Source: Lachnospiraceae bacterium AC2028
GTDB lineage: Bacteria; Bacillota; Clostridia; Lachnospirales; Lachnospiraceae
Direction of reading: 5' to 3'
NCBI GenBank assembly: GCA_000702685.1
Contig: JNJD01000006.1
Coordinates: forward strand, 620,001-684,000
DNA: 64,000 nucleotides
Shown here: in pieces, positions 25,523 to 64,000 of the stretch
Position numbering within the stretch: position 1 is the first letter of the stretch
How the letters are laid out: each line of letters begins with the position of its first letter
The notes under the pieces: model-generated
Told to the model about the DNA's origin: nothing
Seen by the model: only the letters and a program-made list of their open reading frames with translations
The model's database searches: none
Program-made: the position numbers and the translations under genes

Positions 25523-25523
25523 A

Positions 25524-26150
25524 TCATGCCTTTCTGACGGCGCGGCCGTTTTCCATGACCAGGCGTCCGTTCGCAATATCATCTATAGCCTTGGGAAGCA
25601 GCTTCCATTCCGCCTCCTCCATAACTCTCCTCTGAAGAACTTCGGGAGTATCGCCGTCAAGTACTCTTACGGGGATCTGGTCGATGATGGGTCCTTCGTC
25701 CATACCCTCGTTTACGAAATGAACCGTAGCTCCGGTGATCTTAACTCCTCTCTCGAGCGCCTTCTCATGAACCTTGAGTCCGTAGAAACCTACTCCGCAA
25801 AAAGAAGGAATGAGTGAAGGATGAATGTTGATGATCCTTCCGGGATATACGCTTACCATCTCTTCCGGGATCTTTACGAGGAAACCGGCTAGGACGATAA
25901 GATCGGGTGAAAGCTCTGCAAGCTTATCAAGGAATGCCTTATGGAAATCCGCTCTTTCGGAAAACTCCTTGGGACAGATCACGAACGCGGGGATTCCTGC
26001 TGCCTTGGCTCTGTCAAGGCTCTTTACTCCGTGATTGTTGCTGATGACACCGACGATCTCGGTATTTGTTATCGAGCCGTTTGCTATGCCATCGATGATG
26101 GCCTGGAGATTGGTTCCTCCTCCGCTCACACAGACGACGATCTTCAGCAT
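25524..26150 (-). CDS. purN: Phosphoribosylglycinamide formyltransferase
   Basis: Transfers a formyl group from 10-formyl-THF to GAR. Starts [40 protein letters not shown] (about 110-127) holds the catalytic His and the usual folate-loop. 208 residues. It overlaps the end of purM by 7 bp and ends one base before the purD start. Confidence 0.97.
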
Positions 26151-27175
26151 AAGGTTACTCCCTTTTCACCTGCTACGCACTTTCCGACAACATAAGCCTT
26201 CTCACCGGCACCGTTTAAGATCTCTACTGCCTTCTCGGCATCCGCGGGATCGAGTGCGAGCACCATTCCAAGTCCCATGTTGTAGGTATTGTACATCATA
26301 TGCTCCTCAATTCCGCCTGTCTTTGCAAGAAGAGCGAAAATGGGGGGAATGTCATAACTGTTCTTATCGATCTGAGCGTTTATTCCGTCGGGAAGCATTC
26401 TCGGAATGTTCTCATAGAATCCGCCGCCCGTAATGTGGCTGCAGCCCTTAACCTTGACTCCGCCGTTCTTAAGAGCCTTGAGCGCCTTGACGTAGATCCT
26501 GGTGGGAGTAAGAAGCGCCTCGCCGAGCGTCTCACCGAGCTCGTCGTAATATTTGTTAAGAGACTCGGAAGTCATATCGAATACTTTTCTGATAAGTGAA
26601 AATCCGTTTGAATGGATTCCGCTTGATGCGATTCCGACAAGAGTGTCACCGTCCTTGATATCGGCTCCGGTAATGAGGTCTTTCTTATCAACCACACCTA
26701 CGGAGAATCCTGCGATGTCATATTCATCATCGGGCATCATTCCGGGATGCTCTGCGGTCTCACCGCCCACAAGAGCACACTCGCTCATCTTGCAGCCTTC
26801 GGCAACACCCTTTACGATCTCTGCGATCTTCTCGGGATAATTCTTGCCGCATGCAATGTAATCAAGGAAAAAGAGAGGCTCGCCGCCGGCACAGGCTACG
26901 TCATTGACGCACATCGCAACGCAGTCGATACCGATCGTGTCGTGCTTATCAAGGATCATCGCCGCCTTGAGCTTGGTTCCTACTCCGTCCGTTCCGGACA
27001 GAAGTACGGGTTCTTCCATACCCTTAAATGCCGCTGCGCTGAACGCTCCCGAAAATCCTCCGAGTCCGCCCATAACCTCGGGCCTGTTAGTCTCACCGAC
27101 GTATTTCTTGATGAGCTCAACGGATCTGTAACCTGCCTCAATGTCTACGCCTGCTGCCTTGTAATCAAGTGCCAT
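26144..27175 (-). CDS. purM: Phosphoribosylformylglycinamidine cyclo-ligase
   Basis: Converts FGAM to AIR. Family start [40 protein letters not shown] (about 57-73) for ATP binding, and [16 protein letters not shown] (about 245-260). 343 residues. Second gene of the purE-M-N-D operon, 23 bp after purE. Confidence 0.97.
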
Positions 27176-51483: not shown

Positions 51484-51494
51484 TATGATAACCT

Positions 51495-52250
51495 TTACTT
51501 TTCTGTTTTTTCCGATGCTTCGAAATGAGGCATGAGTGTGATCTTATGAAGATTGAGCCTGTGCATTCTGTCTATCTTCTCGCGGATTGCATCATCCTCG
51601 CACTCACCGGTAGCAATATATTTATCGAGAACGGCATAGGTAAACCCGATCTTGTCTTCATCACTCATTCCGCTGAGTCCGTCCGAAGGAGTCTTATGCA
51701 CAAGATTTGAAGGAAGTCCGAGATAATCTCCGATCTGAAGAACTTCCTCTACGGTAAAGCCGGCAAGGATGGACATATCACCGGCAGCATCACCGTACTT
51801 GGTGCTGTAACCGATATAGTCTTCGGATGCATTACAGGTATTAATGACTCTTCCGCCTTCTTCAAGTCCCTGGGCAACCGCATAAAGAGTTGTCATTCTG
51901 ACTCTGGGTGGAATATTTATTCCGACATCCTTTGTAATGGTACCGCCCGCTTCTTCGATGCTCTTTTTAAGCGCCTTTACAGCTTCACCGATGTTCACGG
52001 TATAATGCCTGATTCCGAGATGATCTACAACCGCCTGTGAATCGCTGATATCGGGCTGTATACCGTCGGGCATCATAACGCCGACCACTCTTTCTTTTCC
52101 GAGCGCTCTCGCAAGAAGTGCTGCGGTTATGCATGAATCCTTACCGCCGGATATTCCGAGGACTGCACTGCAGGTCTTTCCGTTCTTTTCAAAAAAATCC
52201 CTTATCCATTCGCAGATCTCATCAACTGTCTTTTCTACATTTGCAAGCAT
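51495..52250 (-). CDS. nadE: NH3-dependent NAD+ synthetase
   Basis: 251 residues; only the ammonia-dependent synthetase domain. LGISGGKDSCITAALL (about 32-47) is the SGGxDS PP-loop, with NTCNASEDYIGYSTKYGDAAGD later. Final step of NAD synthesis from deamido-NAD. 10 bp after the pncB stop and last gene of a pncA-nadD-pncB-nadE cluster. Confidence 0.97.
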   Translation of the reverse strand: MLANVEKTVDEICEWIRDFFEKNGKTCSAVLGISGGKDSCITAALLARALGKERVVGVMMPDGIQPDISDSQAVVDHLGIRHYTVNIGEAVKALKKSIEEAGGTITKDVGINIPPRVRMTTLYAVAQGLEEGGRVINTCNASEDYIGYSTKYGDAAGDMSILAGFTVEEVLQIGDYLGLPSNLVHKTPSDGLSGMSDEDKIGFTYAVLDKYIATGECEDDAIREKIDRMHRLNLHKITLMPHFEASEKTEK

Positions 52251-52260
52251 AATCCACCTC

Positions 52261-53460
52261 TTATTCGTGCTTCATTCTCCAGTCGATACAGCGCTGCAGA
52301 TATTCGACATAAGCGGGATTCTTGCACATTCCCTTACCTTCACTGTCGGAGATCTTGGCAACGTCCTGTCCGTTACATTCGGTTGTCTTCATAACGATGT
52401 TGAGAGCCGGAACATCAGTGTCATTGGCAACATAGGTTCCGATTCCGAATGCCACTTTTGCTCTTCCGTTAAAGTAAGAATTGATATTGTGAGCTTTCTC
52501 AAAATCGAGTGAATCGGAGAAAAGAAGTGTCTTGGTCTTAGGATCGATCCCAAGTTCTTCGTAATGCTTTATCATCTTGTCTCCCCACTTCATGGGATCT
52601 CCGCTGTCCTGTCTTACGCCGGAAAACAGAGTCGCGTAAGTAAGCTGGAAATCCTTAAGGAAGCAGTCTGTAGTGATCGCATCCGTAAGTGCGGTTCCGT
52701 TAAGCACTCCGTATTCCTTGACCCATGCATCGAGAGCATACCAGTTTGAATATGCCGGATTGTGCTTGTGATTGCCCTGTCCGACACACATGATCCACTC
52801 GTGAGCCATTGTTCCGACAGGCTTAAGTCCGAACTTTCTTGCAAGATATACATTGGAGGTTCCCACAAAAAGAGAACCGTTAAGCTTAGCCTTTGCAAGC
52901 TCCGATACCGCAAGTTCCTGAGCCTCTGCGGAAAGTCTTCTTCTGATGCCGAATTCGGAGAATGCACCGATCTTCCATGTTCCGTCCTCAAGCTTTTTGA
53001 TCTTGTCGGCAAGGCGCTCCCTGAAGCTTTCAAGCAGCTTGTCATAATCAAATCCCATACGGAAATAAACACCGTTGACGATTGCAAGCGTGGGAATCTC
53101 ATACATGGAAGTGTTGAGCCAGGTTCCCTTGGTTTCGATGGTAAGTCCGCAGGGAGACTTGGTACCTATCTCAAAATCCTCAAACCTGGGATGCCAGAGC
53201 CTTAAGAAGTCAACGTAAGAACGTCTGAACCATGTGATCTTTCCGAGATATTCAAGTTCATCCTCGGTGAACTTAAGATCACAGTACAGCTTGATCTGAC
53301 GCTTTATCTCCTCGACCATTTCGGGAGTAAAACGTACATCCGTGTTCCTGCATCTGAATGTCCACGTGGTGGTATAGCTGGGGAATTGATGATAGATAGC
53401 CTGTCCCATCGAGAACTTGTACAGGTCCGTTTCAAGAAGACTGTTTATGATCTGTTCCAT
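52261..53460 (-). CDS. pncB: Nicotinate phosphoribosyltransferase
   Basis: 399 residues from the ATG at 53460 (AAGGA six bases upstream; a TTG two codons earlier is the longer frame). LLETDLYKFSMGQAIYHQF is the usual opening and FSGVRQDSGDPMKWG (about 268-282) the PRPP-binding part. Converts nicotinate to nicotinate mononucleotide; the substrate is supplied by the adjacent amidase-like PncA. Two bases separate it from the nadD stop. Confidence 0.96.
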   Translation of the reverse strand: MEQIINSLLETDLYKFSMGQAIYHQFPSYTTTWTFRCRNTDVRFTPEMVEEIKRQIKLYCDLKFTEDELEYLGKITWFRRSYVDFLRLWHPRFEDFEIGTKSPCGLTIETKGTWLNTSMYEIPTLAIVNGVYFRMGFDYDKLLESFRERLADKIKKLEDGTWKIGAFSEFGIRRRLSAEAQELAVSELAKAKLNGSLFVGTSNVYLARKFGLKPVGTMAHEWIMCVGQGNHKHNPAYSNWYALDAWVKEYGVLNGTALTDAITTDCFLKDFQLTYATLFSGVRQDSGDPMKWGDKMIKHYEELGIDPKTKTLLFSDSLDFEKAHNINSYFNGRAKVAFGIGTYVANDTDVPALNIVMKTTECNGQDVAKISDSEGKGMCKNPAYVEYLQRCIDWRMKHE

Positions 53461-53462
53461 GG

Positions 53463-54110
53463 TCAATCCTTCCTTTCATACAGATGATGAGTTTTAATAT
53501 ATTCGAATGCACCTTCAGGGATAAGTTCACGGTATGCCTCCGGATTTTCCCTGATGAGCGTTGATGACAGCACCCTGCCTCTGAATGATGATACGATTAT
53601 CTTTGCCCCGTACTTTTTCTTCAGCTTCTGTTTCTTTTCAAGAATGACATTGATATCATCTTCTCCTCTCGGAGTAACAACCAGAATGACTTCACTCAGA
53701 AGTTTTTCATATTCATGCCACTTTTCTATCTCAAAAAGTATATCGCTGCCGCAAAGGAAATAATAATCTCCGTCAGCGTATTTACTTTCTGCTTCCCTGT
53801 CCTTCGCCTTTAGTTCGGCTACGGTATCAACCGAATAGCTCGGCGTGTCCTTATCCGTTTCGATACGGGATATCTCGATCGGAAGATCAAGGTTCCTTAT
53901 ACCGGCTTCAAGCATACCGATGCGTTCCTCCGAAGAGGTTATACGCATTCCTTTTTCCTCTTTCATATAAGGATGCCCGGACGGAATTATGACAATCCTG
54001 TCCGGGCGTATCTCTTCATAAATATTTGCAAGCAACTCAATGTGGCCCATATGGATGGGATCGAATGTTCCACCGAATATTGCTGTTTTGGGTTTTCCCG
54101 CTATCTCCAA
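53463..54110 (-). CDS. nadD: Nicotinate-nucleotide adenylyltransferase
   Basis: 215 residues. IFGGTFDPIHMGHIELL (about 11-27) holds the HxGH nucleotidyltransferase motif; the C-terminal ISSTLIR-type motif appears as VLSSTLIREN. Makes deamido-NAD from NaMN. Overlaps pncA by 10 bp and ends two bases before pncB. Confidence 0.96.
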   Translation of the reverse strand: MEIAGKPKTAIFGGTFDPIHMGHIELLANIYEEIRPDRIVIIPSGHPYMKEEKGMRITSSEERIGMLEAGIRNLDLPIEISRIETDKDTPSYSVDTVAELKAKDREAESKYADGDYYFLCGSDILFEIEKWHEYEKLLSEVILVVTPRGEDDINVILEKKQKLKKKYGAKIIVSSFRGRVLSSTLIRENPEAYRELIPEGAFEYIKTHHLYERKD

Positions 54111-54655
54111 GGTTCTTCGCCTTTGCCTGTTATGTGTATCTGACAGCTTTCCATTGCTTTAAGGGCATTATCATGACTTTCGGGAGTCACTCCCGCACTG
54201 CAGGATGCATCGACGCCAATCGGAATGTCCGGGCAGAAAGCCTTAATAAGAAGTGCATTGCTTATTACGCAGATATCGGTGCAGAGACCGAACAGTTCTA
54301 TGCTGTCGACTTTTCTGCTTTTCACAAGCTCCGATGCATATTCGCCGAGTGCCTTGCTTCCGAATGTTTCCTTATCAAGTACCTTGGCATCCGGGCACAA
54401 GCCTTCAAGCTTCGATGATATCTGCCAGCCTTCGCTTCCCTTTATGCAGTGGGGAACCGGAAGGTTCTTCCCCTCCTCGGTCTGCATATAGTCATCGCCG
54501 TGGGTATCTCTGGTAAATACAATGATATCACCGGCATCACGGGCTGATGCGATCTTAGCCGCACAGCGGTCTACAATCTTTACCGCCTCAGCGGAACCGA
54601 GTGCTCCGTCGATGAAATCCTTCTGCATATCCACTACTACGATAAGTTTTGCCAT
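54101..54655 (-). CDS. pncA: Nicotinamidase, isochorismatase family
   Basis: 184 residues. VVVDMQKDFIDGALGS (about 5-20, Asp9 equivalent), the metal-site residues DTHGDDY, and the catalytic cysteine in ELFGLCTDICVISNAL (about 120-135). The amidase hydrolyses nicotinamide to nicotinate. First gene of the NAD operon; 27 bp after a low-molecular-weight phosphatase. Confidence 0.92.
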   Translation of the reverse strand: MAKLIVVVDMQKDFIDGALGSAEAVKIVDRCAAKIASARDAGDIIVFTRDTHGDDYMQTEEGKNLPVPHCIKGSEGWQISSKLEGLCPDAKVLDKETFGSKALGEYASELVKSRKVDSIELFGLCTDICVISNALLIKAFCPDIPIGVDASCSAGVTPESHDNALKAMESCQIHITGKGEEPWR

Positions 54656-54682
54656 AACCGCCTCCCGACTTACGTAATTATA

Positions 54683-55156
54683 CTATGAAATGCACTTTTT
54701 CAACAGACATTCACATCCTTCGAGGATCTGTTTGTATACTCCGGAGAAGTCTCCGGTGTACCAGGGGTCATCTATATCCTCCGGATGGTCGGTAAAATCC
54801 ATCATCAGATGTACCTTCCCCTCGGGATCGCCGCCAAGAATGCGGTTCATGTAGCTCAGATTCAGATTCTCCATGCCGATGATGTAATCGAATCTGTCAT
54901 AATCGGCGCGGTTCATCTGTCTGGCACGCTTTTGACTAAGTCCGAGTTCGTTGCCGGGAACACCGATTTTATGCCTTGCAAGTTCTGACTTGGCGGGTGG
55001 GTATATGGGGTTTCCTATTTCCTCCGTGCTGGTCGCCGCGGATTCAATATAGAACTCCGAAGACAATCCGTTCTTCTCCACAAGATCCTTCATTATGAAT
55101 TCTGCCATCGGGGAACGGCAGATGTTGCCCCAACATACAAAAAGTACTTTAATCAT
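54683..55156 (-). CDS. Low-molecular-weight protein tyrosine phosphatase
   Basis: 157 residues. LFVCWGNICRSPMAEFI (about 5-21) is the CX5R P-loop of the LMW-PTP family, and DDPWYTGDF (about 130-138) carries the general-acid aspartate. In Firmicutes such enzymes often act on a tyrosine kinase that controls polysaccharide export; no kinase gene is near. Sits between the NAD operon and the left end of the second island. Confidence 0.93.
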   Translation of the reverse strand: MIKVLFVCWGNICRSPMAEFIMKDLVEKNGLSSEFYIESAATSTEEIGNPIYPPAKSELARHKIGVPGNELGLSQKRARQMNRADYDRFDYIIGMENLNLSYMNRILGGDPEGKVHLMMDFTDHPEDIDDPWYTGDFSGVYKQILEGCECLLKKCIS

Positions 55157-55220
55157 TATTCAATGCCCTCCAAAGCATTGATTTTGCTGGATTTTTTCTT
55201 ATCAAATGTTTGTATATCAT

Positions 55221-55253
55221 GGCAATTTTACCACAAAAAAGTGGTAAATTGCC
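55221..55253. terminator. Hairpin after the integrase gene
   Basis: GGCAATTTTACCAC/GTGGTAAATTGCC arms (one bulge) around a six-A loop. Possible terminator on either strand, or a site at the island end. Confidence 0.5.
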
Positions 55254-55293
55254 AAACTTCAAATTAATGTCGAGAAAAGCTTATATTCATATA

Positions 55294-56502
55294 TCATCCC
55301 GGCATTTGCTGTTTTTCTATTTTTGCAAACTCATAAGCAACCTGATCATAACCAATATGCGTATAACAGTCTAAAGTTGTCTCGATCTTTGAATGTCCCA
55401 TGATATATTGAAGCATCTTTGGATTCATACCCTCCCTGACCATTTTTGAGCAAAATGTATGTCTGCAGACATGCGGTGTTACATATATATAACGCCCGGT
55501 AGCTTGCTTCATTTTTTCACGGCAGCGCTGAAAGTATTTTTCAACCATATTAGGAAGTATGGGAACGCCTCGCCCATCTATAAAGACAAGGTCATCAATT
55601 CCTTCAACCTGTATTTTCTGAACTTTCTTTTTTCTGATCCTTATTATTCGTCCGAGAGAATTCCTGACATTTTTCGACATAGGAATCCTCCTGAATCCGG
55701 ATGGCGTTTTTGTAGTACTAACAACATATCTTTTCCCGTATCGGTTCAGTGTTTTACTGATTTCTATAAACCCTTGTTCAAAATCAACATCATTAAGACT
55801 AAGCCCACACATTTCGGATATTCGAATTCCGGTCTCGAAAAGAAGGATAAACATATCATAGTGACGTTTAAAATGGTCATCATCATGGACAAAAGCGAGG
55901 AACCATTTTTCTTCCAAAGCTGTCAATGCCCCTATTCTTTTCATATCATTAAAAACAACCCCTTCAAATATAAAATCAAAGGGATTGCGATCCAGCAAGC
56001 CATCTTCTACTGCCATTTGAAACGCAGGCCGCAGCACACCGCGGACTGCATGGATTGAGCTGTAACCCCTTCCCTCCGCCTGGAGTTTCATGAGCCATTC
56101 CTTGGCATCTTTTACAGAAATTCGATCGATCTTCCTAAAGCCAAATTCATCTGCATTTAAAAGCTTTCTGACCGTTTTATAACCTGCTTTTGTCGATTCT
56201 TTCACATTTATCCTAAAGGCAAGATAATTATCGACCAGTTCAGAAACCACAATCCTGTCCGTGACCTTTAAGCCCTTTGCCTCCCACATTTTCTCGCTAT
56301 TGATCTCCTCTTCTTTTTCACGAAGAGATTTGCATTTTCTTTTTCCTTGCGGCAATTCATCTGTATCCATCAACCTCCAGCTATATGTATATTTTGTTTC
56401 TCCTGTGAGATTTCGATATCTGAATACATATCTTCCATCGTTTTTTTGATATTCATTTCTTCCCAGCAAACGGCCAAAACTATCAGTTCTTTTCTTCAAC
56501 AC
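55294..56502 (-). CDS. Tn916-type tyrosine integrase of island 2
   Basis: 402 residues starting at a GTG. The N-terminal domain (residues 1-75: GRLLGRNEYQKNDGRYVFRY, YTYSWRL) matches the AP2-like arm-binding domain of Tn916 Int. The core-binding and catalytic domains follow, with Arg in TGIRISEMCGLSL, HVCRHTF (His-x-x-Arg) and MGHSKIETTLDCYTHI (nucleophile). The adjacent gene upstream is the DUF2828 gene rather than a xis gene. An inverted repeat overlaps its ribosome site. Confidence 0.95.
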   Translation of the reverse strand: MLKKRTDSFGRLLGRNEYQKNDGRYVFRYRNLTGETKYTYSWRLMDTDELPQGKRKCKSLREKEEEINSEKMWEAKGLKVTDRIVVSELVDNYLAFRINVKESTKAGYKTVRKLLNADEFGFRKIDRISVKDAKEWLMKLQAEGRGYSSIHAVRGVLRPAFQMAVEDGLLDRNPFDFIFEGVVFNDMKRIGALTALEEKWFLAFVHDDDHFKRHYDMFILLFETGIRISEMCGLSLNDVDFEQGFIEISKTLNRYGKRYVVSTTKTPSGFRRIPMSKNVRNSLGRIIRIRKKKVQKIQVEGIDDLVFIDGRGVPILPNMVEKYFQRCREKMKQATGRYIYVTPHVCRHTFCSKMVREGMNPKMLQYIMGHSKIETTLDCYTHIGYDQVAYEFAKIEKQQMPG

Positions 56503-56509
56503 GAAAATA

Positions 56510-56551
56510 CCTCCTTGTATATATGATGTTTAATCATACATACAAAGGAGG
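56510..56551 (-). promoter_or_regulatory. Inverted repeat sequestering the integrase ribosome site
   Basis: Minus strand CCTCCTTTGTATGTATGAT pairs with ATCATATATACAAGGAGG across a four-base loop (18-19 pairs, two mismatches). The second arm is the AAGGAGG ribosome site, 7 bases before the GTG start. In the mRNA the site would be hidden. Confidence 0.75.
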
Positions 56552-56658
56552 CATTCCAAATCTCAATTTAAACTTATTTAGCTATGATGAAAATTATTAT
56601 CCTACTCTTGTTTAATGATTTGATTGAATATCCGTTGTTTAGTGTATCCTTCCAATCC

Positions 56659-56684
56659 GGCAGGGAGTATTCCTTCTCCCTGCC
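56659..56684 (-). terminator. Hairpin after the DUF2828 gene
   Basis: GGCAGGGAG/CTCCCTGCC stem with an eight-base loop, 13 bases after the DUF2828 stop. There is no good T run, so transcription may partly read into the integrase. Confidence 0.55.
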
Positions 56685-56696
56685 ACTTCTGATAAC

Positions 56697-58166
56697 TCAT
56701 GCAGCGATCCTTTCGTAACGTGCTGATGAAAGGACACTCATCATGAATTTGTATGGTTCCAGATTACCGTCTTTCAGCATTGAAAAGACCTGTGGGCTAC
56801 AACCTGATACCAGCGCCACTCCCTGATCATTCATTCTTACAGGCTGATGCAGATTTCGGCTGTTAACATTCCAAAAGATAACCTGAGGAAGCTTGTAGCC
56901 CCATTTTTCAAATTCTCTTTTGGCATTTTCAAAGTTGGTAGCCTCAGCATCACCGGCACAATAGTCAAACTCCATGTCCGATATGATGTAGATCTTTTCC
57001 GGCATATCTGACTGCTTCAATCTGTTGTAAATAGCAGTCTGGAGTATCAGCATAAATGTCTTTTCAATATTTGTATTATTGCATTCATTGAAGCTCATGC
57101 AGTAACGCACTTTATCAACTATGTCCTTGCCCTTGATCTCGATGAGTCTCGGGTTTGTAGAGAAAGTTATGAAGTGATTGTGGAATGCACCGGTATTTCT
57201 TTCTGCAAAATAGATACCCAGTGACTGTGCCACTGCCGCAGGGCATGGATCAGCATTCCAGTACATTGAGCCCGAACCATCGACTACAACAAGAGAATTG
57301 TCAGAACCGGCGTAATTCTCCAGTGCATTCCATGTTGCATCCATGGCACGTCTCTCAGCTTCAGAGAACTCTCTTCTGCCCAGGACAGGAGCTATAACAT
57401 CATAAGGTGTCAGTGTACCTGTGTGCATTACTGTAGGATCCTCAGTCGCCTTACGGATAAAAGCCTCATACCTTACCTGGTCATTTCTGATGAAGGCCTG
57501 TCTGTACTTGTACAGGGCTTTTGAAGGCTGCTTCGCATAGTCAAAAGAGTAGTCTCTCTGACGGAGGTTATTCTCTATGATCTTGATCTGCGCCCTGAGA
57601 GCTGAGAGTGTTTTGCGATACTCAGCATCAGACATCTTCATTGCTCTCGCAATCTTCCTTGCTTTTCTTACAGCTTCTTTATTGCTGGTATTTATCGAAG
57701 GAAGCCATTTTGCCAAAAGAGACACTTCCGCGTTTTCCCTGTCAGCATCCAGAACAGCCATATCAGCTTTGAGAGCTTTATCAAAATATGCCAGTACTTC
57801 TTTTTCTAAAGGTGTGTCAAATAACGCCAGAAGATCATCGTACCTGCCACACTCCGCAACATACTCGATATTCTTTTTCACTGATTGCGGTTCGCACTCA
57901 GCCAAATACTTAAGTATAACCTTGAACACTCTTCTCTCACCAAGGCCACCTCTAATGTCTCTTGCAAAGAAAAGCATCTTCATTGCAAGATCTGCATTCT
58001 CAGCATAAGCTCTGGTAAATCTGAATATGATATCTTCGTCTGATGCATGTCTAAGCGCTCCGATCGTTGCAAAGAAATCCAAGCAGTCCGACTTTGTTGA
58101 AATATAAGTTGCCGCACCGTTCTCTGTATATGTTTTATTTGCTTCTGTCTCTAAAAAATCTAACAT
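56697..58166 (-). CDS. DUF2828 protein (Ro60/TROVE-like with vWA MIDAS)
   Basis: 489 residues from the start at 58166 (AGAGG eight bases upstream; two earlier codons at 58172 and 58190 have none). The N-terminal helical part contains LDFFATIGALRHASDEDIIF and LFFARDIRGGLGERR (about 60-85), the pattern of TROVE/DUF2828 RNA-binding repeats. The C-terminal vWA domain has the MIDAS set: VVVDGSGSMYWN (about 290), a threonine in ECNNTNIEK, and ISDMEFD. Ro60 proteins bind non-coding Y RNAs and misfolded RNAs. Here three structured RNA modules precede the gene, and the first ORF start lies 18 bases past the third. Ro60 family membership is inferred; DUF2828 is the nearest named family. Confidence 0.85.
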   Translation of the reverse strand: MLDFLETEANKTYTENGAATYISTKSDCLDFFATIGALRHASDEDIIFRFTRAYAENADLAMKMLFFARDIRGGLGERRVFKVILKYLAECEPQSVKKNIEYVAECGRYDDLLALFDTPLEKEVLAYFDKALKADMAVLDADRENAEVSLLAKWLPSINTSNKEAVRKARKIARAMKMSDAEYRKTLSALRAQIKIIENNLRQRDYSFDYAKQPSKALYKYRQAFIRNDQVRYEAFIRKATEDPTVMHTGTLTPYDVIAPVLGRREFSEAERRAMDATWNALENYAGSDNSLVVVDGSGSMYWNADPCPAAVAQSLGIYFAERNTGAFHNHFITFSTNPRLIEIKGKDIVDKVRYCMSFNECNNTNIEKTFMLILQTAIYNRLKQSDMPEKIYIISDMEFDYCAGDAEATNFENAKREFEKWGYKLPQVIFWNVNSRNLHQPVRMNDQGVALVSGCSPQVFSMLKDGNLEPYKFMMSVLSSARYERIAA

Positions 58167-58189
58167 CTTCATTACCTCTTTCTTAAACA

Positions 58190-58281
58190 AGGTGCAACCG
58201 GGTTATAGTGCCCGGCACACTCTCCCTGCGCAGGCAGGGTACCATCTACAATCGTGAGATTTTTTGTCGCTGTATGCACCT
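58190..58281 (-). ncRNA. Structured RNA module 3 (no tRNA fold) in the DUF2828 leader
   Basis: Closing stem AGGTGCA/TGCACCT (7 bp, perfect); one base inside lies TACAGCGA, like the motif in modules 1 and 2. Inside are hairpins CCCTGC/GCAGGG and CCGGG/CCCGG. It ends 24 bases before the gene start and may control translation. Confidence 0.65.
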
Positions 58282-58291
58282 ATATGATCAC

Positions 58292-58399
58292 TAGATACAT
58301 CCCTTAACATAAGAGGGATTCGAACCCTCCGCCTGCCCGGTTATCATCCGGGTGCCACCCTCTGCAGCTATATGCGGTGTCGTTTGCTGTTAGTATCTA
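58292..58399 (-). ncRNA. Structured RNA module 2 with tRNA-Ile-like fold
   Basis: Closing stem TAGATAC/GTATCTA (7 bp) followed by TAACAGCAA. Inside is a tRNA-like domain: a T arm GAGGG/CCCTC with TTCGAAT, an anticodon arm CCCGG/CCGGG with loop ATGATAA (GAT), and a 3-bp D arm. The acceptor stem pairs only CATA/TATG. So this is not a normal tRNA; the flanking stem replaces the acceptor. Confidence 0.8.
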
Positions 58400-58405
58400 T
58401 TATTC

Positions 58406-58516
58406 AAGACACATGTTCCCCGAAGGGTTGGAGCGGGATTCGAACCCGCGAATTCCGAATCCGTAATTCGGCGCTTAACCTTTTAGCCATCCTGTAATGA
58501 TTGCTGTTCGTGTCTT
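58406..58516 (-). ncRNA. Structured RNA module 1 with tRNA-Arg-like fold
   Basis: Closing stem AAGACAC/GTGTCTT (7 bp) followed by GAACAGCAA. The enclosed tRNA-like domain has a T arm GCGGG/CCCGC with TTCGAAT, an anticodon arm CCGAA/TTCGG with loop TTACGGA (ACG), and a GCT/AGC D arm, but acceptor pairing is only GGA/TCC. A CCC-TTC-GGG hairpin lies on the 3' side. The TATGAT promoter lies 13 bases upstream. Confidence 0.82.
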
Positions 58517-58528
58517 TGTTGTGATTTA

Positions 58529-58557
58529 ATCATAGTCCTTACAATTGGAGATAAAAA
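58529..58557 (-). promoter_or_regulatory. Promoter of the RNA-DUF2828 unit
   Basis: TATGAT (58534-58529) with a weak TTTTTA at the -35 position (58557-58552, 17-base spacer). Start would fall about 5 bases before the first RNA's closing stem. A weak -35 box suggests activator control. Confidence 0.6.
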
Positions 58558-58565
58558 GATGCAGA

Positions 58566-58594
58566 TTGACTTTGTATTGCAACCCCAATATAAT
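58566..58594 (+). promoter_or_regulatory. Promoter of the WYL gene
   Basis: TTGACT (58566-58571), 17-base spacer, TATAAT (58589-58594): a near-consensus sigma-A promoter 64 bases before the start codon. Confidence 0.85.
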
Positions 58595-58657
58595 TGAATA
58601 TATACACAGTTTTGCATTATATTTCCATTTTTCACGACCCCAAATAAGAGGCGTAAT

Positions 58658-59644
58658 ATGACAGAGAAATACAAGATTTACCTTTCAGATGACACAAGAT
58701 CAAGACTGATAAATGACGCAGAACTCTTTGAATTCACTAAGAAGGATGAGTCTGTCAACCTCAACTCATTCCTTAAGACTCTGATAGTCAATTTCTTTGA
58801 CCGTTACAGGCATGACAGCGAAAACCTGCTTTCAAATATTAAGCAGGATCTGACAGGTATTACAGCGATCAGTGACAAGGACGCTGCACTTCTGGCAGAC
58901 AAGATAATAAGCACGTACATTAAGGCTGACAACCTACAGAGCAGCAGGAATACAGCCCTCACCCTTACTGTAGGCGGATCTTCATATGAGATTCTCAAGA
59001 TCATAGAGAACAACATGTTAAAAGATACATCCCTGTCCCAGTATCTTAAGGACATGTTTAATTCATATCTGTCCATACCGAGAAGTGAAAGAGAAACCAT
59101 CATTTTCAAAGATACCTATGAAGATATCTCCAGGGCACTTAAAGAGCACAGAATTCTTTCTTTTACCAGCTCAGCCTCCGACGACGAGATATCTTTTAGT
59201 GTTGAGCCATATATTATCGCACCATCCAAAGAAGAACAGTGCAATTATCTGTTATGCAGGGATAGAAATACCGGAACACCGAGAACCTTTAGAATATCAA
59301 GACTCAGAAGCGTATTCGTAACTTCCGATACTTTTTCTGTGGATCCGGACATTCAAAAAGAGCTTCAGGAAAAAGCCATCCGAAGCCCTCATTCAGTGTC
59401 ATTATCAGTCAAGGCAGTTGTCCGACTGAACAAATATGGAATTAAAAGGTTTAAGGCGATCACCAAGAACAGGCCTATCGTTTCGAAAATAGAAGGAGAC
59501 CTGTACTACTTTGACTGGCCTGAACTTCAGCTGGAAGAATACTTCAAGCGTTTTGGAAACGATGCAGTAGTTATTAAACCCGCATCTCTTAAGGAGAGAA
59601 TCAGGAAGTTCTATTACTATGGCCTCAGAGAGTATAATAAGTAG
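58658..59644 (+). CDS. WYL-domain transcriptional regulator
   Basis: 328 residues. The N-terminus (MTEKYKIYLSDDTRSRLINDAELFEF, then NSFLKTLIVNFFDRYR) looks like a ribbon-helix-helix rather than the usual winged helix. The WYL domain lies around residues 145-235 (ALKEHRILSFTS, FSVEPYIIAPSKEEQCNYLLCRD, RNTGTPRTFRISRLRSVF), where aromatic and arginine residues bind a ligand, often nucleic acid. AGAGG is six bases before the ATG. Divergent from the RNA-DUF2828 unit, so it is the likely controller of both. Confidence 0.9.
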   Translation: MTEKYKIYLSDDTRSRLINDAELFEFTKKDESVNLNSFLKTLIVNFFDRYRHDSENLLSNIKQDLTGITAISDKDAALLADKIISTYIKADNLQSSRNTALTLTVGGSSYEILKIIENNMLKDTSLSQYLKDMFNSYLSIPRSERETIIFKDTYEDISRALKEHRILSFTSSASDDEISFSVEPYIIAPSKEEQCNYLLCRDRNTGTPRTFRISRLRSVFVTSDTFSVDPDIQKELQEKAIRSPHSVSLSVKAVVRLNKYGIKRFKAITKNRPIVSKIEGDLYYFDWPELQLEEYFKRFGNDAVVIKPASLKERIRKFYYYGLREYNK

Positions 59645-59893
59645 GACAGAGAACATCGATTAACTTGTGACTGGTTAAAAGAATCCGAATGTGAATGGCT
59701 AGCCAAGCCCGATGTTCATATTATAGAGGTCGTAAAAAAAAATCACATCAGATGATAAAAACAACGAAAACGAAACAGTCCGTTTTATGGATTCCTGGAC
59801 AAAAGAATTACAGTCCTGCAAAAAATACAAAGAGGCTACAGTATTACTTTACACATGAGCGCCTGTGACAGCGTGATACAGATCGGAGTTGGC
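59645..59893 (+). pseudogene. Degraded coding remnants
   Basis: No intact gene. A short frame (about 59755-59857; DKNNENETVRFMDSWTKELQ) looks like the tail of a lost protein, with no start or ribosome site. Confidence 0.4.
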
Positions 59894-60137
59894 ATGAATT
59901 CTAGGATAGATAAAATACGAGAAAGTGAGAAGCAATCTCACACAAAAATATACAATGAAGAAGACTTATACAACACAGACAGTTGGCTAAAAAAGCCAAT
60001 TAAAACTGTACAGGATATCATGCCACTTCTTTCTGATCATGAGTGTTTCCGGGCGCTTGATCTTGGATGTGGAATTGGAAGAAATAGCATATATATAGCC
60101 GAGCAACTAGGGAATAAGGGAGGTCTGGTCGATTGTG
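59894..60137 (+). pseudogene. Truncated SAM-dependent methyltransferase
   Basis: From the ATG at 59894 (GGAG five bases upstream) the protein reads MNSRIDKIRESEKQSHTKIY and reaches the SAM motif FRALDLGCGIGRNSIYIAE (about 55-73), then breaks off after about 80 residues at GGLVDCV. Methyltransferases of this type are 190-250 residues, so two thirds are missing. The break coincides with the end of a minus-strand fragment. Confidence 0.8.
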
Positions 60138-60220
60138 TACCCTGATATTTTTTCTTCAGGGATGTCTATATATTCATGAAGAGGCCAACCGCTTCGGTTT
60201 TTAACAATAATTTCATTCAT
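60107..60220 (-). pseudogene. Truncated minus-strand gene after the GNAT
   Basis: A 37-residue frame starting MNEIIVKNRSGWPLHEYIDI and reading PEEKISGY before it runs into methyltransferase sequence. It starts four bases after the GNAT stop, so it was once its operon partner. Family not recognised. Confidence 0.6.
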
Positions 60221-60224
60221 CCGC

Positions 60225-60794
60225 CTATATCATTCCTCTTTCATCATTTAAATCTTTTTTGGTGTTCACCACCACGTATTTTTCGTCCGTTCTTGGATCT
60301 ATTGTCTCCTCAGATTTATAGTCAAACTTAAAACCACATGCATCCTGCAATCTTTTTGAAGCCAGATTCTTTTCACGATAACTACAGTGAAATTCTTTTG
60401 CTCCCTGTTTTCTTGCCTCTCCACACAATGCATTTAAAATCTGTTTTCCATATCCTTTTCCAACAAAGTCTGGTCCAATGGCGATTCCCATATCCTCATA
60501 TACATAGGGATTCACTTCACGCATGGATGCCCATCCAATGGCTTCTAATCCGCTTTCCGTTTTCAGATATACAGTAAGCGCGTACTTTTCTTTACTTTGA
60601 AAATCAAGAGTTCGAAGCATCCTGTCCTTTGATTCTTCCTCAGAATCATCGATCTTCCATAGCATATATTTGGCAGACTCCGGTCGGCTTGTTATATTTC
60701 GGTACAGCTGCTCCCAGTCACCAAATACAGCCTTTTTCATGATCAGATTACTTGTCTCTATCACGACCTCTGAATAATCCGTAACAATTTCCAT
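60225..60794 (-). CDS. GNAT N-acetyltransferase
   Basis: 189 residues from the start at 60794 (GGAG eight bases upstream; the longer frame to 60869 overlaps the nitrilase gene). ETSNLIMKKAVFGDWEQLYRN is the RimJ-type opening and GPDFVGKGYGKQILNALC (about 112-129) the acetyl-CoA loop. It follows the nitrilase-like gene by 19 bp. Substrate unknown; possibly cargo of island 2. Confidence 0.88.
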   Translation of the reverse strand: MEIVTDYSEVVIETSNLIMKKAVFGDWEQLYRNITSRPESAKYMLWKIDDSEEESKDRMLRTLDFQSKEKYALTVYLKTESGLEAIGWASMREVNPYVYEDMGIAIGPDFVGKGYGKQILNALCGEARKQGAKEFHCSYREKNLASKRLQDACGFKFDYKSEETIDPRTDEKYVVVNTKKDLNDERGMI

Positions 60795-60813
60795 TTTCTC
60801 AACTCCATAAACT

Positions 60814-61593
60814 TCAGGTCGAAGATCCTGACAATTGATCCGAATAGCGCTTACGCCCAATTTCGCCAAAGTTTAATTCCTGATTTTCAAAATCGTATAT
60901 GAGCATTCCCTCACTATCCTTATCCAGTTCTTTACCTACTCCCCCTGATGCATTGATAAAGCAGGTAGGCGCTGTCTGATAGGGATGAATCGCATTTACA
61001 GATAATACGGGTGTGATATTTTCTACAGCTCTTGTAATCAGATGTCCACGAATCATCTGGTACCGAATCTCATCCTCTTTATCAGCCACATCATAAAACA
61101 GCACAATATCCAAATCGGTATTTTCCCTATACAGTTCTCTAAAATACTCAGGGAACCGTACTTCAAAGCAAATTCTTACGCCAATCTTTATCCCATCTAT
61201 TTCATATATTCCATTTTCATCGCCGAGTGCAAAATTATCCTCATCCCATCCATAGAGTGCCCGTTTATCATACCATCGTTTGGCTTTGGTAGGTGAAATC
61301 AAGTATGCTCTGTTATAATATTTTGAATCAACGTAATCGATTGTACCTACTATAATGTGAATATCCAGTTCGTCTGCCAGTTTCTGTAACTCCTGTATAG
61401 CTTCAGAAACCACATTGACATTGATTCTGTCTGAACCGGCAATATCACGAGGCGGATACCCTGTCAAAGCACATTCAGGAAATATGATCAAATCCACCTT
61501 ATTCTCTGATGCGCTCACTATAGCTTTTTTTATTATTTCAAGATTATGATCAATATCACCACATACGGCAAATTGATAAGCCGCCAACCTCAT
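60814..61593 (-). CDS. Carbon-nitrogen hydrolase (nitrilase superfamily)
   Basis: 259 residues. Catalytic triad: Glu in LIIFPECALTGYPPRD (about 36-51), Lys in RWYDKRALYG, Cys in KIGVRICFEVRFPEYFREL (about 140-158). The family opening MRLAAYQFAVCGDIDHNLE is present. Members hydrolyse nitriles or amides such as N-carbamoyl compounds; the substrate is not evident. Between an AAA ATPase (17 bp upstream) and the GNAT. Confidence 0.92.
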   Translation of the reverse strand: MRLAAYQFAVCGDIDHNLEIIKKAIVSASENKVDLIIFPECALTGYPPRDIAGSDRINVNVVSEAIQELQKLADELDIHIIVGTIDYVDSKYYNRAYLISPTKAKRWYDKRALYGWDEDNFALGDENGIYEIDGIKIGVRICFEVRFPEYFRELYRENTDLDIVLFYDVADKEDEIRYQMIRGHLITRAVENITPVLSVNAIHPYQTAPTCFINASGGVGKELDKDSEGMLIYDFENQELNFGEIGRKRYSDQLSGSST

Positions 61594-61610
61594 AACTCTT
61601 TCTCATCCTT

Positions 61611-62948
61611 TCATAGGTCTTCAATTAAAAATGGCAACATGTATATTGGATATAATTTCAGCATTTCACTATTGCCTATATCTTTTTGTGATAACAATAT
61701 TTCCTTCGAAACATGCTTAGAATATTTTTTCTGAAATTCTGTGATTGATTCATGCTTACCGATTCCGGATGACTTAACTTCAATCGAAACTATCTTTGTT
61801 TTCGAAGCAAGCAAAAAGTCAACCTCATAGTAGTGAGAACTGTTTTCTTTCTCCCATGTGTGATAATAAAGGTCTATATCCGATCCGGCAATTATCTGAG
61901 CAACTGCATTTTCGTATAAATATCCCAAATCTGCAGGAAGTGAATCGCTCAACAATTTCGTATAAATATTTTCATCCGTCTTTCCTGATGATCTGAAAAT
62001 CATGGTAGTAAATAACCCTGTATCAGCCAAATAAAGTTTGAATGTATCATCATCTCTCGTTTGAGATAACGCAATGCTCGGATTAAGGACATTATGGCAT
62101 GATAATACCGTCTTTGAATCCAGCAAATCATGTAAACGCTCTAAATCTTTATCGATCTTTTTTTTGCCTGTAGCTGCCGAAATAACATAGCTTCTTTTAT
62201 CTGTTGCCAACTGCGTCGGAACAGAATCATACATTCTTCCAATCAGTCCGGTATCATCGATCTTGAAGAAATCGTCTTTGTACAAATCTATGATTTCTCT
62301 CTTTACTTCATCGATTTCTGTAAAATTCCTGCCTTCCACATAAGCTTCTACAGCCTGAGGCATTCCACCTACCGCCATATAAATTCTGAAATCCCGCATC
62401 AGCTTTCTGTTTAAGGAATTTCCAACCGGCTTCCCAAGCTTATATAAATCCCGCAATACGCCATAGGTATCATTTCCGATGGCCCACATAAATTCTTCAT
62501 AGTCCATCGGATATATCTGTATTTTCATCTCCTCAGATGGAAGCACTATATCCTTGACATTCTTTTTTATACTGATCAGAGAACCGGTCTCAATATAGTC
62601 ATATCTTCCGTCCGCAACCAGGTACTTTATAGCCTGGCGCACTTTAGGCATAAGCTGGATCTCGTCAAATATAATAACGGATTCTCTTTTATACAACGTT
62701 ATCCCAGTTGCAGTTTGCAGTCTAAGAAAAAAAATATCCAAATTTGCTATGTCATCGAACACATCAAGAACATCCTGCGTTATGTTAGCAAAATCCACTT
62801 TTATATATGACCTATACTCTTGCTTTGCAAATTCTTCGGCAATTGTCGATTTTCCAACACGCCTGGCCCCTTCCAGAAGCACAGAATACTTTGGTGCCTT
62901 TTTTTCTTTCCAATATTTTAGCTTTTCTAAAGCTTTTCTCTTAAACAT
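61611..62948 (-). CDS. AAA_14 / DUF4143 ATPase
   Basis: 445 residues. Walker A in LLEGARRVGKSTIAEEFA (about 24-41), Walker B in SVIIFDEIQLMPKVRQAI, and a C-terminal DUF4143 domain with a nuclease-like YEVDFLLASKTKIVSIEVKSSG. This family is common in Clostridia and other anaerobes; its cell role is unknown. GAGGAG lies five bases before the start. Four copies of a short repeat precede it. Confidence 0.92.
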   Translation of the reverse strand: MFKRKALEKLKYWKEKKAPKYSVLLEGARRVGKSTIAEEFAKQEYRSYIKVDFANITQDVLDVFDDIANLDIFFLRLQTATGITLYKRESVIIFDEIQLMPKVRQAIKYLVADGRYDYIETGSLISIKKNVKDIVLPSEEMKIQIYPMDYEEFMWAIGNDTYGVLRDLYKLGKPVGNSLNRKLMRDFRIYMAVGGMPQAVEAYVEGRNFTEIDEVKREIIDLYKDDFFKIDDTGLIGRMYDSVPTQLATDKRSYVISAATGKKKIDKDLERLHDLLDSKTVLSCHNVLNPSIALSQTRDDDTFKLYLADTGLFTTMIFRSSGKTDENIYTKLLSDSLPADLGYLYENAVAQIIAGSDIDLYYHTWEKENSSHYYEVDFLLASKTKIVSIEVKSSGIGKHESITEFQKKYSKHVSKEILLSQKDIGNSEMLKLYPIYMLPFLIEDL

Positions 62949-62970
62949 ACTATCTCCTCAAAACAACATG

Positions 62971-63082
62971 GTTCCATTTCTTCAAACTTATAAATGGATT
63001 ATAGTACCATTTCTTCAATATTTCAAGGGCATTATTCCGTTTCTTCAAGATTTATTTCTGATTTTAGTACCGTTTCTTCCAA
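62971..63082. repeat. Four-copy repeat upstream of the AAA_14 gene
   Basis: TACC(A/G)TTTCTTCAA-like words at 62971-62985, 63004-63018, 63034-63048 and 63067-63082, spaced 33, 30 and 33 bp. Regular three-turn spacing suggests a regulator binding site. Confidence 0.75.
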
Positions 63083-63091
63083 ATTACTGAC

Positions 63092-63120
63092 AAAAAGCAC
63101 CCTGCATAACGCAGAGTGCT
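63092..63120 (-). terminator. Terminator on the minus strand, island 2 right side
   Basis: AGCAC-CTGC / GCAG-GTGCT stem, loop ATAAC, then TTTTT on the minus strand. No gene was found immediately before it on that strand. Confidence 0.7.
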
Positions 63121-63594
63121 CTCATCTCATCGGGTAGTTCACCTTAAAAGGTGTAAACGGGGTGTAAATCCATTTGATAGATCTTCAAAATGCCGTATTT
63201 TCAAGGTTTTCCGCCTTACTGAAATCTCTTGCCCCAGCAGATGAATAGTATTCTAAACATGCCTCAAACCCTTGATTTTACTGGATTTCTTGATTTTTGA
63301 TTGTGCCAAAAAATGATATAATTTGACGTATTTTGATGGGCAAAAGGTGCAAAAAAGGTGCAAATTTCGAAAAATTTGCACCCGGGCCAAATCCAGTAAC
63401 CAAGCCATTCTTGCAAAAATCCCCTTCTCCAAAACTCCAAAAAACGTTCTGCAAAAGGTGCAAAAAGGTGCAAATCATGAAATTGACCTGATTGGCTTTT
63501 TGCTTTGTCCATTATAGAGATTATCACAGGAAAAACAGTTTGAAAAGGTACGTGAGCAGTAATCCAGCGGTAACTCAGCGGTAAAGTAGCGGTA
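63121..63594. repeat. Right-end repeat region of island 2
   Basis: No convincing gene. GGTG(T/C)AAA occurs as three pairs at 63150/63161, 63347/63358 and 63457/63467. A perfect inverted repeat GGTGCAAATTT/AAATTTGCACC spans 63358-63383. TTACTGGATTT (63278-63288) returns inverted at 63390-63400. These resemble recombinase arm and core sites. Confidence 0.6.
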
Positions 63595-63801
63595 TTAGAA
63601 ATAGAATACGTCTTCAAATTTCTTATCAAGTGCTATACAGATTACCAACGCAAGTTTGGCTGTTGGACAGAATTGCCCTGTCTCGATTGAGCTTATTGTG
63701 TTTCTTGACACGCCGACCATTTTCGCCAGCTCATCCTGTGACAGATTCAGCTCCTTGCGGTATTCCTTTAATCTGTTCTTTAATACCAGTGAATCATCCA
63801 T
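63595..63801 (-). CDS. XRE-family regulator
   Basis: 68 residues from the ATG at 63801 (GAGG eight bases upstream; two earlier ATGs lack a site). LKEYRKELNLSQDELAKMVGVSRNTISSIETGQFCPTAKLALVICIAL is the whole helix-turn-helix domain, ending in EDVFYF. Small proteins of this kind are often paired with the following membrane protein gene, as here (the stop of that gene is 10 bases away). Confidence 0.93.
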   Translation of the reverse strand: MDDSLVLKNRLKEYRKELNLSQDELAKMVGVSRNTISSIETGQFCPTAKLALVICIALDKKFEDVFYF

Positions 63802-63811
63802 TGCGCTTACC

Positions 63812-64000
63812 TCATGGATAGACATTAAAGATCTCACAGACCGTCATAAACGTGAAAATACCAAACGGTATGGCGTTCGTGAGTGTCATGATGATGTATT
63901 TGCGTTCTTTCTTCTTGATGGCATTGTAGAGGCTCATTGCGAAAACAATACAAAACTCTGTAGCCACAATACCATAGATCATCTTGCTGTGTGCGATAAG
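63812..64000 (-). CDS. Membrane protein, 5' part outside window
   Basis: The frame is open to the window edge and stops at 63812. The last 62 residues contain two membrane helices (MIYGIVATEFCIVFAMSLYN and YIIMTLTNAIPFGIFTFMTV). Together with the XRE gene it forms a two-gene unit common in Clostridia. Family cannot be named. Confidence 0.8.
   Translation of the reverse strand, partial: LIAHSKMIYGIVATEFCIVFAMSLYNAIKKKERKYIIMTLTNAIPFGIFTFMTVCEIFNVYP

Follow-up and report, generated by a model that had tools for sequence, protein, structure and literature searches.

Tandem ACAGC RNA modules beside DUF2828 genes: a candidate Ro60/Y RNA-like system in a Lachnospiraceae bacterium and in phages

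The DUF2828 locus

The stretch of DNA considered here, hereafter the window, comprises 64,000 nucleotides of Lachnospiraceae bacterium AC2028 (contig JNJD01000006.1, positions 620,001 to 684,000). It carries a gene for a DUF2828 protein, a divergent gene for a WYL-domain protein and, in the gap between them, three RNA modules (M1, M2 and M3; Table 1). This arrangement had been singled out in an initial annotation, made from the sequence, as a candidate relative of the system formed by Ro60 and Y RNAs, Ro60 being a ring protein of RNA quality control. In Pfam, the open reading frame (ORF) 56697-58190 (minus strand) matches DUF2828 with 113.7 bits (cut-off 29) and DUF7788 with 144.2 bits (cut-off 27.1). 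Its listed start, TTG at 58190, overlaps M3; judged from the sequence, ATG at 58169 is the likelier start, and the gap to the WYL gene therefore measures 488 bp (58170-58657). The three modules fill 311 of these, all on the DUF2828 strand and upstream of the gene, the 3' end of M3 lying about 20 bases ahead of the likely start codon.

The description of three tandem modules, each with its own closing stem and the motif ACAGC(A/G)A, was confirmed. The gap holds three such modules in sense and none in antisense; of 5000 dinucleotide shuffles of it, 4996 contained none and four contained one, and elsewhere in the 64-kb window the same rule found no further module on either strand. As judged by folding energy, the whole stretch of modules departs only slightly from expectation (z -1.83, with 3 of 100 shuffles equally or more stable). 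The stem sequences were as first noted; the spacing, given as the same for all three modules, had to be mended, since in the register originally used two bases separate the stem from ACAGC in M1 and M2 and one in M3. In the register of the whole RNA family, the outermost stem pair of M3 is a T-T mismatch.

The interior of M1 is a tRNA-like body with D, anticodon and T arms and an acceptor stem cut to 3 bp, that of M2 a tRNA-like body with anticodon and T arms, and that of M3 consists of hairpins. The Rfam tRNA model aligns with M1 over positions 5-66 of 71 (45.3 bits, gathering threshold 29), the first four acceptor positions being absent, and with M2 over positions 4-67 (22.3 bits), so that the tRNA-like folds proposed for modules 1 and 2 hold for M1 and fall below the gathering threshold for M2. 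M3 gave no match to the model. ARAGORN called no tRNA in any of the three, and neither ARAGORN nor the Rfam model found in M1 or M2 the complete acceptor stem of a functional tRNA gene. Among five orthologous sequences of M2, the anticodon and T stems present four compensatory pairs, a number reached by 2 of 500 shuffles. The complete difference between the closing stems of M1, M2 and M3, noted at the outset, is not a special feature: the idea of orthogonal stems, kept distinct against mispairing, was rejected because full cross-pairing occurs in 43.5% of 317 within-locus pairs, slightly above the permutation mean of 37.0% (496 of 500 permutations lie at or below the observed value).

Table 1. 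Features of the DUF2828 cassette and of its border in the window
Feature	Position	Strand	Basis and remarks
Tn916-type integrase adjoining the cassette	55294..56502	-	Pfam; outside the stretch common to relatives; candidate member only
DUF2828/DUF7788 gene, Ro60-like protein (predicted helical and vWA domains, MIDAS-type residues)	56697..58169	-	Pfam, alignment, AlphaFold2, Foldseek
M3: stem AGGTGCA/TGCACCT, T, ACAGCGA (58273-58267)	58190..58281	-	R1 family model, 16.1 bits
M2: stem TAGATAC/GTATCTA, TA, ACAGCAA (58390-58384)	58292..58399	-	R1 family model, 25.9 bits
M1: stem AAGACAC/GTGTCTT, GA, ACAGCAA (58507-58501)	58406..58516	-	R1 family model, 29.4 bits
Probable -10 element TATGAT of a putative array promoter, 13 bases before the M1 stem	58529..58534	-	Conserved position (TANNAT)
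Direct repeat, copy 2 (TGGGGTTG), putative function as in copy 1	58580..58587	-	GGGG core in 22/23 rows; less uniform after the core
Direct repeat TGGGGTYG, copy 1, possible WYL operator	58635..58642	-	TGGGG core in 23/23 rows
WYL-domain protein, divergent from the DUF2828 gene	58658..59644	+	Pfam WYL (PF13280), 32.5 bits, cut-off 21.8

An RNA family beside DUF2828 genes

Homologues of the DUF2828 gene were detected in 31 of 298 genomes of the host's family. The bacterial and archaeal genomes of GTDB yielded at least 572 candidate DUF2828 stretches and viral contigs at least 590; the best 80 of each were used as bacterial and viral loci, some of the viral rows being near-duplicates. With 57-89% identity to the query, the 80 bacterial loci are a close sample. 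In 189 loci (29, 80 and 80 in the three sets, the partial locus L030 being excluded), the sequence preceding the DUF2828 gene was examined over as much as 1.5 kb. Sense copies of ACAGC(A/G) numbered 54, 169 and 152 in the first 500 bases and 6, 31 and 32 at 1001-1500 bases, and its reverse complement 1, 11 and 5 in the first 500 bases. Within 1 kb upstream, 330 of 484 ACAGC sites close a perfect 7-bp stem, compared with 53-79 after the 5' strands had been exchanged among sites (five repeats, at most one G-U allowed per stem). When a G was demanded after the stem, 329 of 542 sites within 1.5 kb qualified, against 48-65 with swapped stems. This G is present in 295 of the 308 modules detected without using it, the seventh motif base is A in 271 of the same 308, and the family consensus reads ARGRYRC-NN-ACAGCAA ... 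GYRYCUU-G.

The initial annotation had proposed looking for DUF2828 genes with the same RNA layout, and these are plentiful: counting both flanks, sense modules accompany 77 of the 80 bacterial and 57 of the 80 viral loci (134 of 160 in all), and antisense modules none and two, respectively. Module totals, sense against antisense, are 177 to 0 in the bacterial and 145 to 2 in the viral set. One DUF2828-carrying viral contig also bears a RAGATH-16 RNA (L139, 1153-1225, 68.8 bits).

The closing stems covary, which was the other check suggested at the outset. In a set of 52 short modules (A2), all seven stem pairs vary on both sides, and the covariation score is 0.778, against an average of 0.290 in shuffles and no more than 0.192 on sliding. 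The 100% paired cells of A2 say nothing alone, because its modules had been selected for pairing, and the swapped-stem control is a fairer test. A covariance model built from A2 (R1), run on the same 298 genomes at E<=0.01, gave 21 matches in 16 genomes, 17 of them beside a DUF2828 gene and four elsewhere; it matched 13 of the 31 DUF2828-positive genomes and 3 of the 267 negative ones, the latter about the chance expectation. At this scale R1 misses many long modules, including those of the window, whose interiors exceed those in its training set, and it is therefore a test of low sensitivity; a local search recovers M1, M2 and M3. The single R1 match in the host genome lies away from the locus (E 0.24). 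Another match (G092:C220:3652-3703, 42.7 bits) is on a contig different from that of the detected DUF2828 gene.

Fourteen further loci, from 13 named phages and one plasmid, were inspected, and 11 of them have strict modules, 30 in sense and none in antisense; one of the 30 falls within the Faith1 gene itself, and three others, both modules of phiM12 and one from phi1_175008, look weak. The modules lie upstream of the DUF2828 gene in Listeria CKA15, Campylobacter F356, Bacillus FADO and Enterococcus EF1, downstream in Mycobacterium Faith1, E. coli EC6, Staphylococcus S-CoN_Ph11 and Klebsiella phi1_175008, and some are 1.3-2.8 kb upstream in FADO and in the Subdoligranulum plasmid. Phage modules can also sit within tRNA clusters. 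On 24 loci, namely 13 DUF2828 phages and 11 loci of TROVE, the family of canonical Ro60 proteins, R1 gave 13 matches at E<=0.01, all in sense; they fall in 7 of the 13 phages, and the 11 TROVE loci have none.

tRNA parts within the modules

A T-arm occurs in 68 of 297 distinct module interiors (shuffle mean 0.8) and an anticodon-type hairpin, CU-NNN-AA on a 5-bp stem, in 47 (shuffle mean 0.5). The D arm precedes the T-arm in 21 of the 68 T-arm modules and follows it in one, the other 46 having no clear D arm by the pattern used. There is also a second, inside-out form, in which a tRNA-like gene with a 7-bp acceptor and D and T arms has the stem inserted in its anticodon arm, the inserted stem being a small-loop hairpin followed by ACAGCAA. 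The hairpin criterion alone, tried for finding embedded modules, was abandoned as barely above control (37 of 542 sites, 15-28 when swapped); with a T-arm and a 7-bp acceptor demanded as well, 20 of 542 sites remained, against 0-2 in ten swaps, corresponding to 18 distinct sequences in 18 loci. Three embedded genes of one locus (L118) align with the whole Rfam tRNA model, 44-55 nt replacing the anticodon loop or arm, and further full-length Rfam tRNA matches of 106-125 nt are found among DUF2828 loci.

Two phage annotations touch on this form. In Aeromonas PX29, one module lies within an annotated tRNA, at a distance of 2.5 kb downstream of the gene: the two-piece tRNA-Leu at L199 7871-7987 holds an inserted stem with ACAGCAA, and is probably a mis-annotated embedded module. 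In Synechococcus phage B23, the 110-nt 'tRNA-Undet' (L202 5851-5960) consists of a tRNA-like gene into which a hairpin is inserted; the sequence after this hairpin, ACTGCAA, is a variant form of the ACAGCAA motif.

The DUF2828 protein and the Ro60 fold

The AlphaFold2 model of the window protein, computed with 17 sequences, has a predicted local distance difference test (pLDDT) score of 85.7, and the predicted structure shows a ring of helical repeats and a vWA domain, as in Ro60. All 13 Foldseek matches in the PDB at E<=0.001 are Ro60/Rsr/TROVE proteins, with template modelling (TM) scores of 0.45-0.59 by query and 11-16% identity. In the 17-sequence alignment, the invariant columns include D297, S299, S301, T366 and D398, which are residues of the metal ion-dependent adhesion site (MIDAS) type of vWA domains. 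The Ro60-like nature assigned to the protein at the start is thus borne out by its predicted fold. By sequence alone the kinship is weakly indicated: hhalign aligns DUF2828 with TROVE over 330 columns (E 1.2e-4, probability 55), the TROVE side having only three sequences. PHROG 850, labelled 'RNA-binding protein', covers the window protein, and some mycobacteriophage DUF2828 copies bear the annotation 'Ro-like RNA binding protein'. A PADLOC search with the window protein was negative.

Neighbouring genes, regulation and mobility

The divergent WYL partner noted in the window is kept in relatives with the same layout: a homologue of the window type lies 242-633 bp upstream in 33 of the 80 bacterial loci, two of which (L032 and L041) lack strict modules. 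A different WYL protein (PF13280) is upstream in 37 other bacterial loci, which brings the total to 70 of 80; an ORF in L091, with no Pfam match, was not counted as WYL. In the 80 viral loci there is no homologue of either WYL protein. RtcB (PF01139) is encoded near 48 of the 80 bacterial loci, downstream and on the same strand in 44 of the 48, and this strengthens a theme of RNA repair or of the RNA quality control that the initial annotation had proposed; in 8 of the 32 bacterial loci without RtcB, the sequence stops no more than 1.3 kb from the DUF2828 gene. RlaP (PF10127) is near five of the 80 bacterial loci. A nucleotidyltransferase gene that by eye resembles the RlaP match adjoins a canonical TROVE gene (L208 53-880). 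In phage CKA15, RtcB and RNA ligase genes lie 1.3 and 4.1 kb downstream of the DUF2828 gene.

The intergenic region of the window was aligned with those of 22 of the 33 WYL-divergent relatives (23 rows, one partial), and the probable -10 element and the direct repeats of Table 1 come from this alignment. A sigma-70 scan of the minus strand did not pick up the TATGAT. In 20 of the 80 bacterial loci, CGCAACTTTTTTT or a near form occurs at most 900 bases upstream of the DUF2828 gene; inspection by eye places CGCAACTTTTTTT ahead of the modules where the WYL gene is of the second type, and it may be a regulator site.

Homology of at least 150 bp to relatives is confined to 56643-59646 (84% over 3009 bp in L031), except for two patches within 50000-64000, of 947 bp in L054 and 188 bp in L091; several relative contigs are short, and the comparison of flanks is limited accordingly. 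The first patch, window 50088-51022 (64% identity), lies about 3-4 kb upstream of the L054 DUF2828 gene. An origin from integration at an attachment site was rejected, no direct repeat of at least 16 bases flanking the cassette in 54600-60400, where the only repeat of that length is the T-arm common to M1 and M2. The mobility proposed for the unit is suggested by homology that ends near the cassette borders and by the adjoining integrase, but flanking repeats are lacking; a role in defence would be a matter of inference only. Weak Pfam matches liken the short ORF 59855-60145 beside the cassette to the beginning of a methyltransferase, and the ORF is apparently truncated.

Interpretation and alternative explanations

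Taken together, these comparisons indicate that a covarying, conserved RNA family partnered with a Ro60-like protein is real. They show an RNA element tied to its gene, its content of tRNA parts, a predicted Ro60-like fold and linkage with WYL and RtcB genes; protein-RNA binding, transcript layout, WYL sensing and tRNA sorting belong to the mechanism proposed in what follows. We consider it probable that the locus encodes a distinct Ro60/Y-like ribonucleoprotein, forming a separate branch, within a WYL-controlled RNA-repair cassette. In this model, a promoter beside the WYL gene would drive one transcript containing the three RNA modules and then the DUF2828 message. Each module would offer a common binding site, namely the 7-bp stem, followed by a G, whose inner end opens on ACAGCAA opposite an A-rich strand. 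This site would be bound by the DUF2828 ring protein, leaving the variable interior, often a tRNA arm or body, to face out as a tRNA mimic. The particle might then sort damaged or misfolded tRNA (for example, nuclease-cut) to repair or decay, with the mimic as gate or tether; the repair partner in many relatives may be the RtcB of the neighbouring gene and, in the window strain, decay or another enzyme could take over. The WYL protein would sense a nucleic-acid-derived signal and turn the unit on.

Several observations weigh against this model. On the RNA side, the covariation of the M1 inner stems in seven orthologues is not above shuffles (189 of 500 shuffles), and the M1 anticodon stem is paired in only 74% of the cells of that alignment. 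Strict modules are absent from 23 of the 80 viral and 3 of the 80 bacterial loci, and from phages nt-1, B23 and FNU3, the last two having look-alikes of the module on inspection. The bacterial set comprises the 80 top-scoring loci out of at least 572, and the viral set has its near-duplicates. The invariance of ACAGC in detected modules is by construction, because ACAGC was the search anchor; independent evidence for the motif is its pile-up upstream of DUF2828 genes. As to the protein, it has no match to PF05731 (TROVE), only DUF7788, DUF2828 and a weak VWA_2 being found at E<=1, and a profile search of the PDB reaches TROVE chains at only E 0.33. RtcB is near only one of the 80 viral loci and absent from the window, and the host genome gave no RtcB match (one query, no positive control).

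The position of the modules invites another explanation, in which they form a cis-acting 5' untranslated region, so that the DUF2828 protein would bind its own leader and repress translation or stabilise the message, with no free RNAs. The window modules stand directly upstream on the coding strand, with M3 ending close to the likely start codon, and 284 of the 330 closed stems in the 189 loci lie within 500 bases upstream. A leader, however, accounts poorly for the modules found downstream of the gene in Faith1, EC6, S-CoN_Ph11 and phi1_175008, for those at 1.3-2.8 kb upstream in FADO and the Subdoligranulum plasmid, and for those within tRNA-like genes having their own acceptor stems; moreover, the interiors are often tRNA parts and not one fixed regulatory fold. 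We regard this explanation as unlikely. About equally improbable is that the RNAs are decoys, whose anticodon hairpins and tRNA bodies would occupy anticodon nucleases of phage-host conflict, with the DUF2828 ring as a stable holder. The CU-NNN-AA hairpins would fit such a bait, UUU and GUU being the commonest triplets in modules without a T-arm (11 and 6 of 38), as would the phage copies that can lie in tRNA clusters and the RtcB and RlaP neighbours, which point to RNA damage; however, the anticodons are diverse (19 different triplets among the 31 T-arm modules with an anticodon hairpin), and in three tRNA-embedded copies the insert replaces the anticodon loop.

The presence of tRNA pieces and of an integrase adjoining the cassette could also suggest that the modules are debris of tRNA genes, left by repeated integration of mobile elements and kept by chance beside DUF2828. 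This is scarcely credible: the stems pair far above the swapped control and are nearly all in sense, so that both controls already contradict it, the majority of interiors have no T-arm, and flanking repeats are missing.

The model of a Ro60/Y-like particle can be extended. More broadly, DUF2828 and the ACAGC RNAs might form a second Ro60-Y RNA world, widespread and with an RNA-recognition code of its own, a joint reading that, taken as a whole, is offered as a possibility rather than a probability. The binding hairpin would be grafted on tRNA bodies, either in place of the acceptor end (as in M1 and M2) or in the anticodon arm of a full tRNA-like gene, or would carry bare anticodon hairpins. 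Cells would use the system under WYL control together with RtcB, and phages would carry it as an opposing tool in the contest over tRNA damage, their copies lying at times beside tRNA clusters and the protein occurring in virions in one published case.

For DUF2828, a domain of unknown function, the analysis supplies a predicted fold, places it in the context of a pathway and gives it an RNA partner whose motif is defined. Its reach is considerable, the DUF2828 query having matched 682 of 50,697 phage records (and 4 of 72,556 plasmids) in addition to the at least 572 candidate stretches in bacterial and archaeal genomes, and the modules are a kind of RNA found beside more than 100 related bacterial and phage genes. 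The purpose of tRNA mimicry by Y RNAs, an open question, would become testable in easy laboratory phages, and ribonucleoproteins of the Ro60 type would be linked to WYL sensing and RtcB repair. If the joint reading were true, the eukaryotic DUF2828 members would be overlooked Ro60 counterparts, which is a prediction only.

Comparison with known systems

Bacterial Y RNAs were reportedly the subject of Chen et al. in 2014. Searches of open-licence papers gave none that by title or abstract start describes the ACAGC motif, a weak negative of limited scope, and the papers returned for DUF2828 concern, by their listing, plants. The modules share with YrlA RNAs (RF02553; background in the accessible part of PMC8394870) their location beside a Ro60-type gene, which holds for the window and for 134 of the 160 loci. 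They differ in the inner sequence, which by eye is CGAATGC or CGAGGCG in five YrlA matches and ACAGCAA in the modules, and in the order of the arms, the T arm preceding the D arm in YrlA matches and M1 and M2 following the order D, anticodon, T. With its T-before-D order, YrlA resembles a tRNA cut open next to the anticodon arm, so that in layout the inside-out form corresponds to a circularly permuted YrlA. The kinship with YrlA that had been suggested for the RNAs was not sustained, RF02553 being silent here (no match in 58150-58700 at E<=5) yet finding canonical Ro60 loci (E<=0.1 in three of seven TROVE loci, one above gathering). Neither YrlA nor another non-tRNA Rfam family matched at gathering in the window or in 20 relatives; a lax search gave three matches (two plastid families), all sub-gathering and on the opposite strand over the T-arms, which were taken as tRNA echoes. 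Conversely, outside the gene itself, the TROVE strand of the 11 TROVE loci is free of strict modules.

Among phages, a scan of viral contigs with one TROVE protein as query returned nothing and with a TROVE alignment two loci, and a TROVE query matched 372 phage records compared with 682 for DUF2828. Both kinds are annotated Ro-like in actinophages, so annotation can be confused; PMC12363180, in the part available, attributes a fold resembling that of Ro60 to mycobacteriophages belonging to clusters C and AF, and the cluster C-type phages examined here carry TROVE. The nearest published case is that of Listeria phage CKA15: the available part of PMC12282133 places CKA15_055 in virions, gives its HHpred match to Rsr and proposes that strongly transcribed non-coding regions less than 2 kb upstream of it may be Y RNAs, the most transcribed non-coding region being 26,236-26,727. 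CKA15_055 is a DUF2828 homologue; no RNA motif is defined in that part of the study. The identity of the abundant CKA15 RNAs with the modules was considered and is not established, the strongest region lying off the three modules (about 25,290-25,554): 26,236-26,727 (L191 4483-4974) has no ACAGC module and may be another structured RNA. A promoter-like TTGACA-17-TATCAT precedes the module array at 25,603, and is one of five pattern matches in the 6 kb upstream. With the WYL regulators of defence systems treated in the accessible part of PMC4012209, the window shares a WYL protein divergent from the unit beside a conserved repeat; it differs in that no CRISPR or known defence gene was identified at the locus.

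The closest comparison is with the Ro60/Rsr-Y RNA operon. In the canonical RNA-repair operon, rtcR, rsr, Y RNAs and rtcBA are linked (PMC7790460, in the part available), and on a Rhizobium plasmid the order is rtcR, TROVE gene, YrlA matches (one of 98.4 bits) and rtcB. The DUF2828 unit has DUF2828 for TROVE, ACAGC RNAs for YrlA and WYL for RtcR, and an rtcB gene is found near 48 of the 80 relatives and not in the window; by the tests made it is a member of neither TROVE nor YrlA. The likeness lies in a predicted Ro60-like protein, in structured RNAs with a closing stem and tRNA-like interior beside its gene, in RtcB often near DUF2828 relatives and in a regulator with a ligand-sensing domain, and the DUF2828 unit would work in a similar manner.

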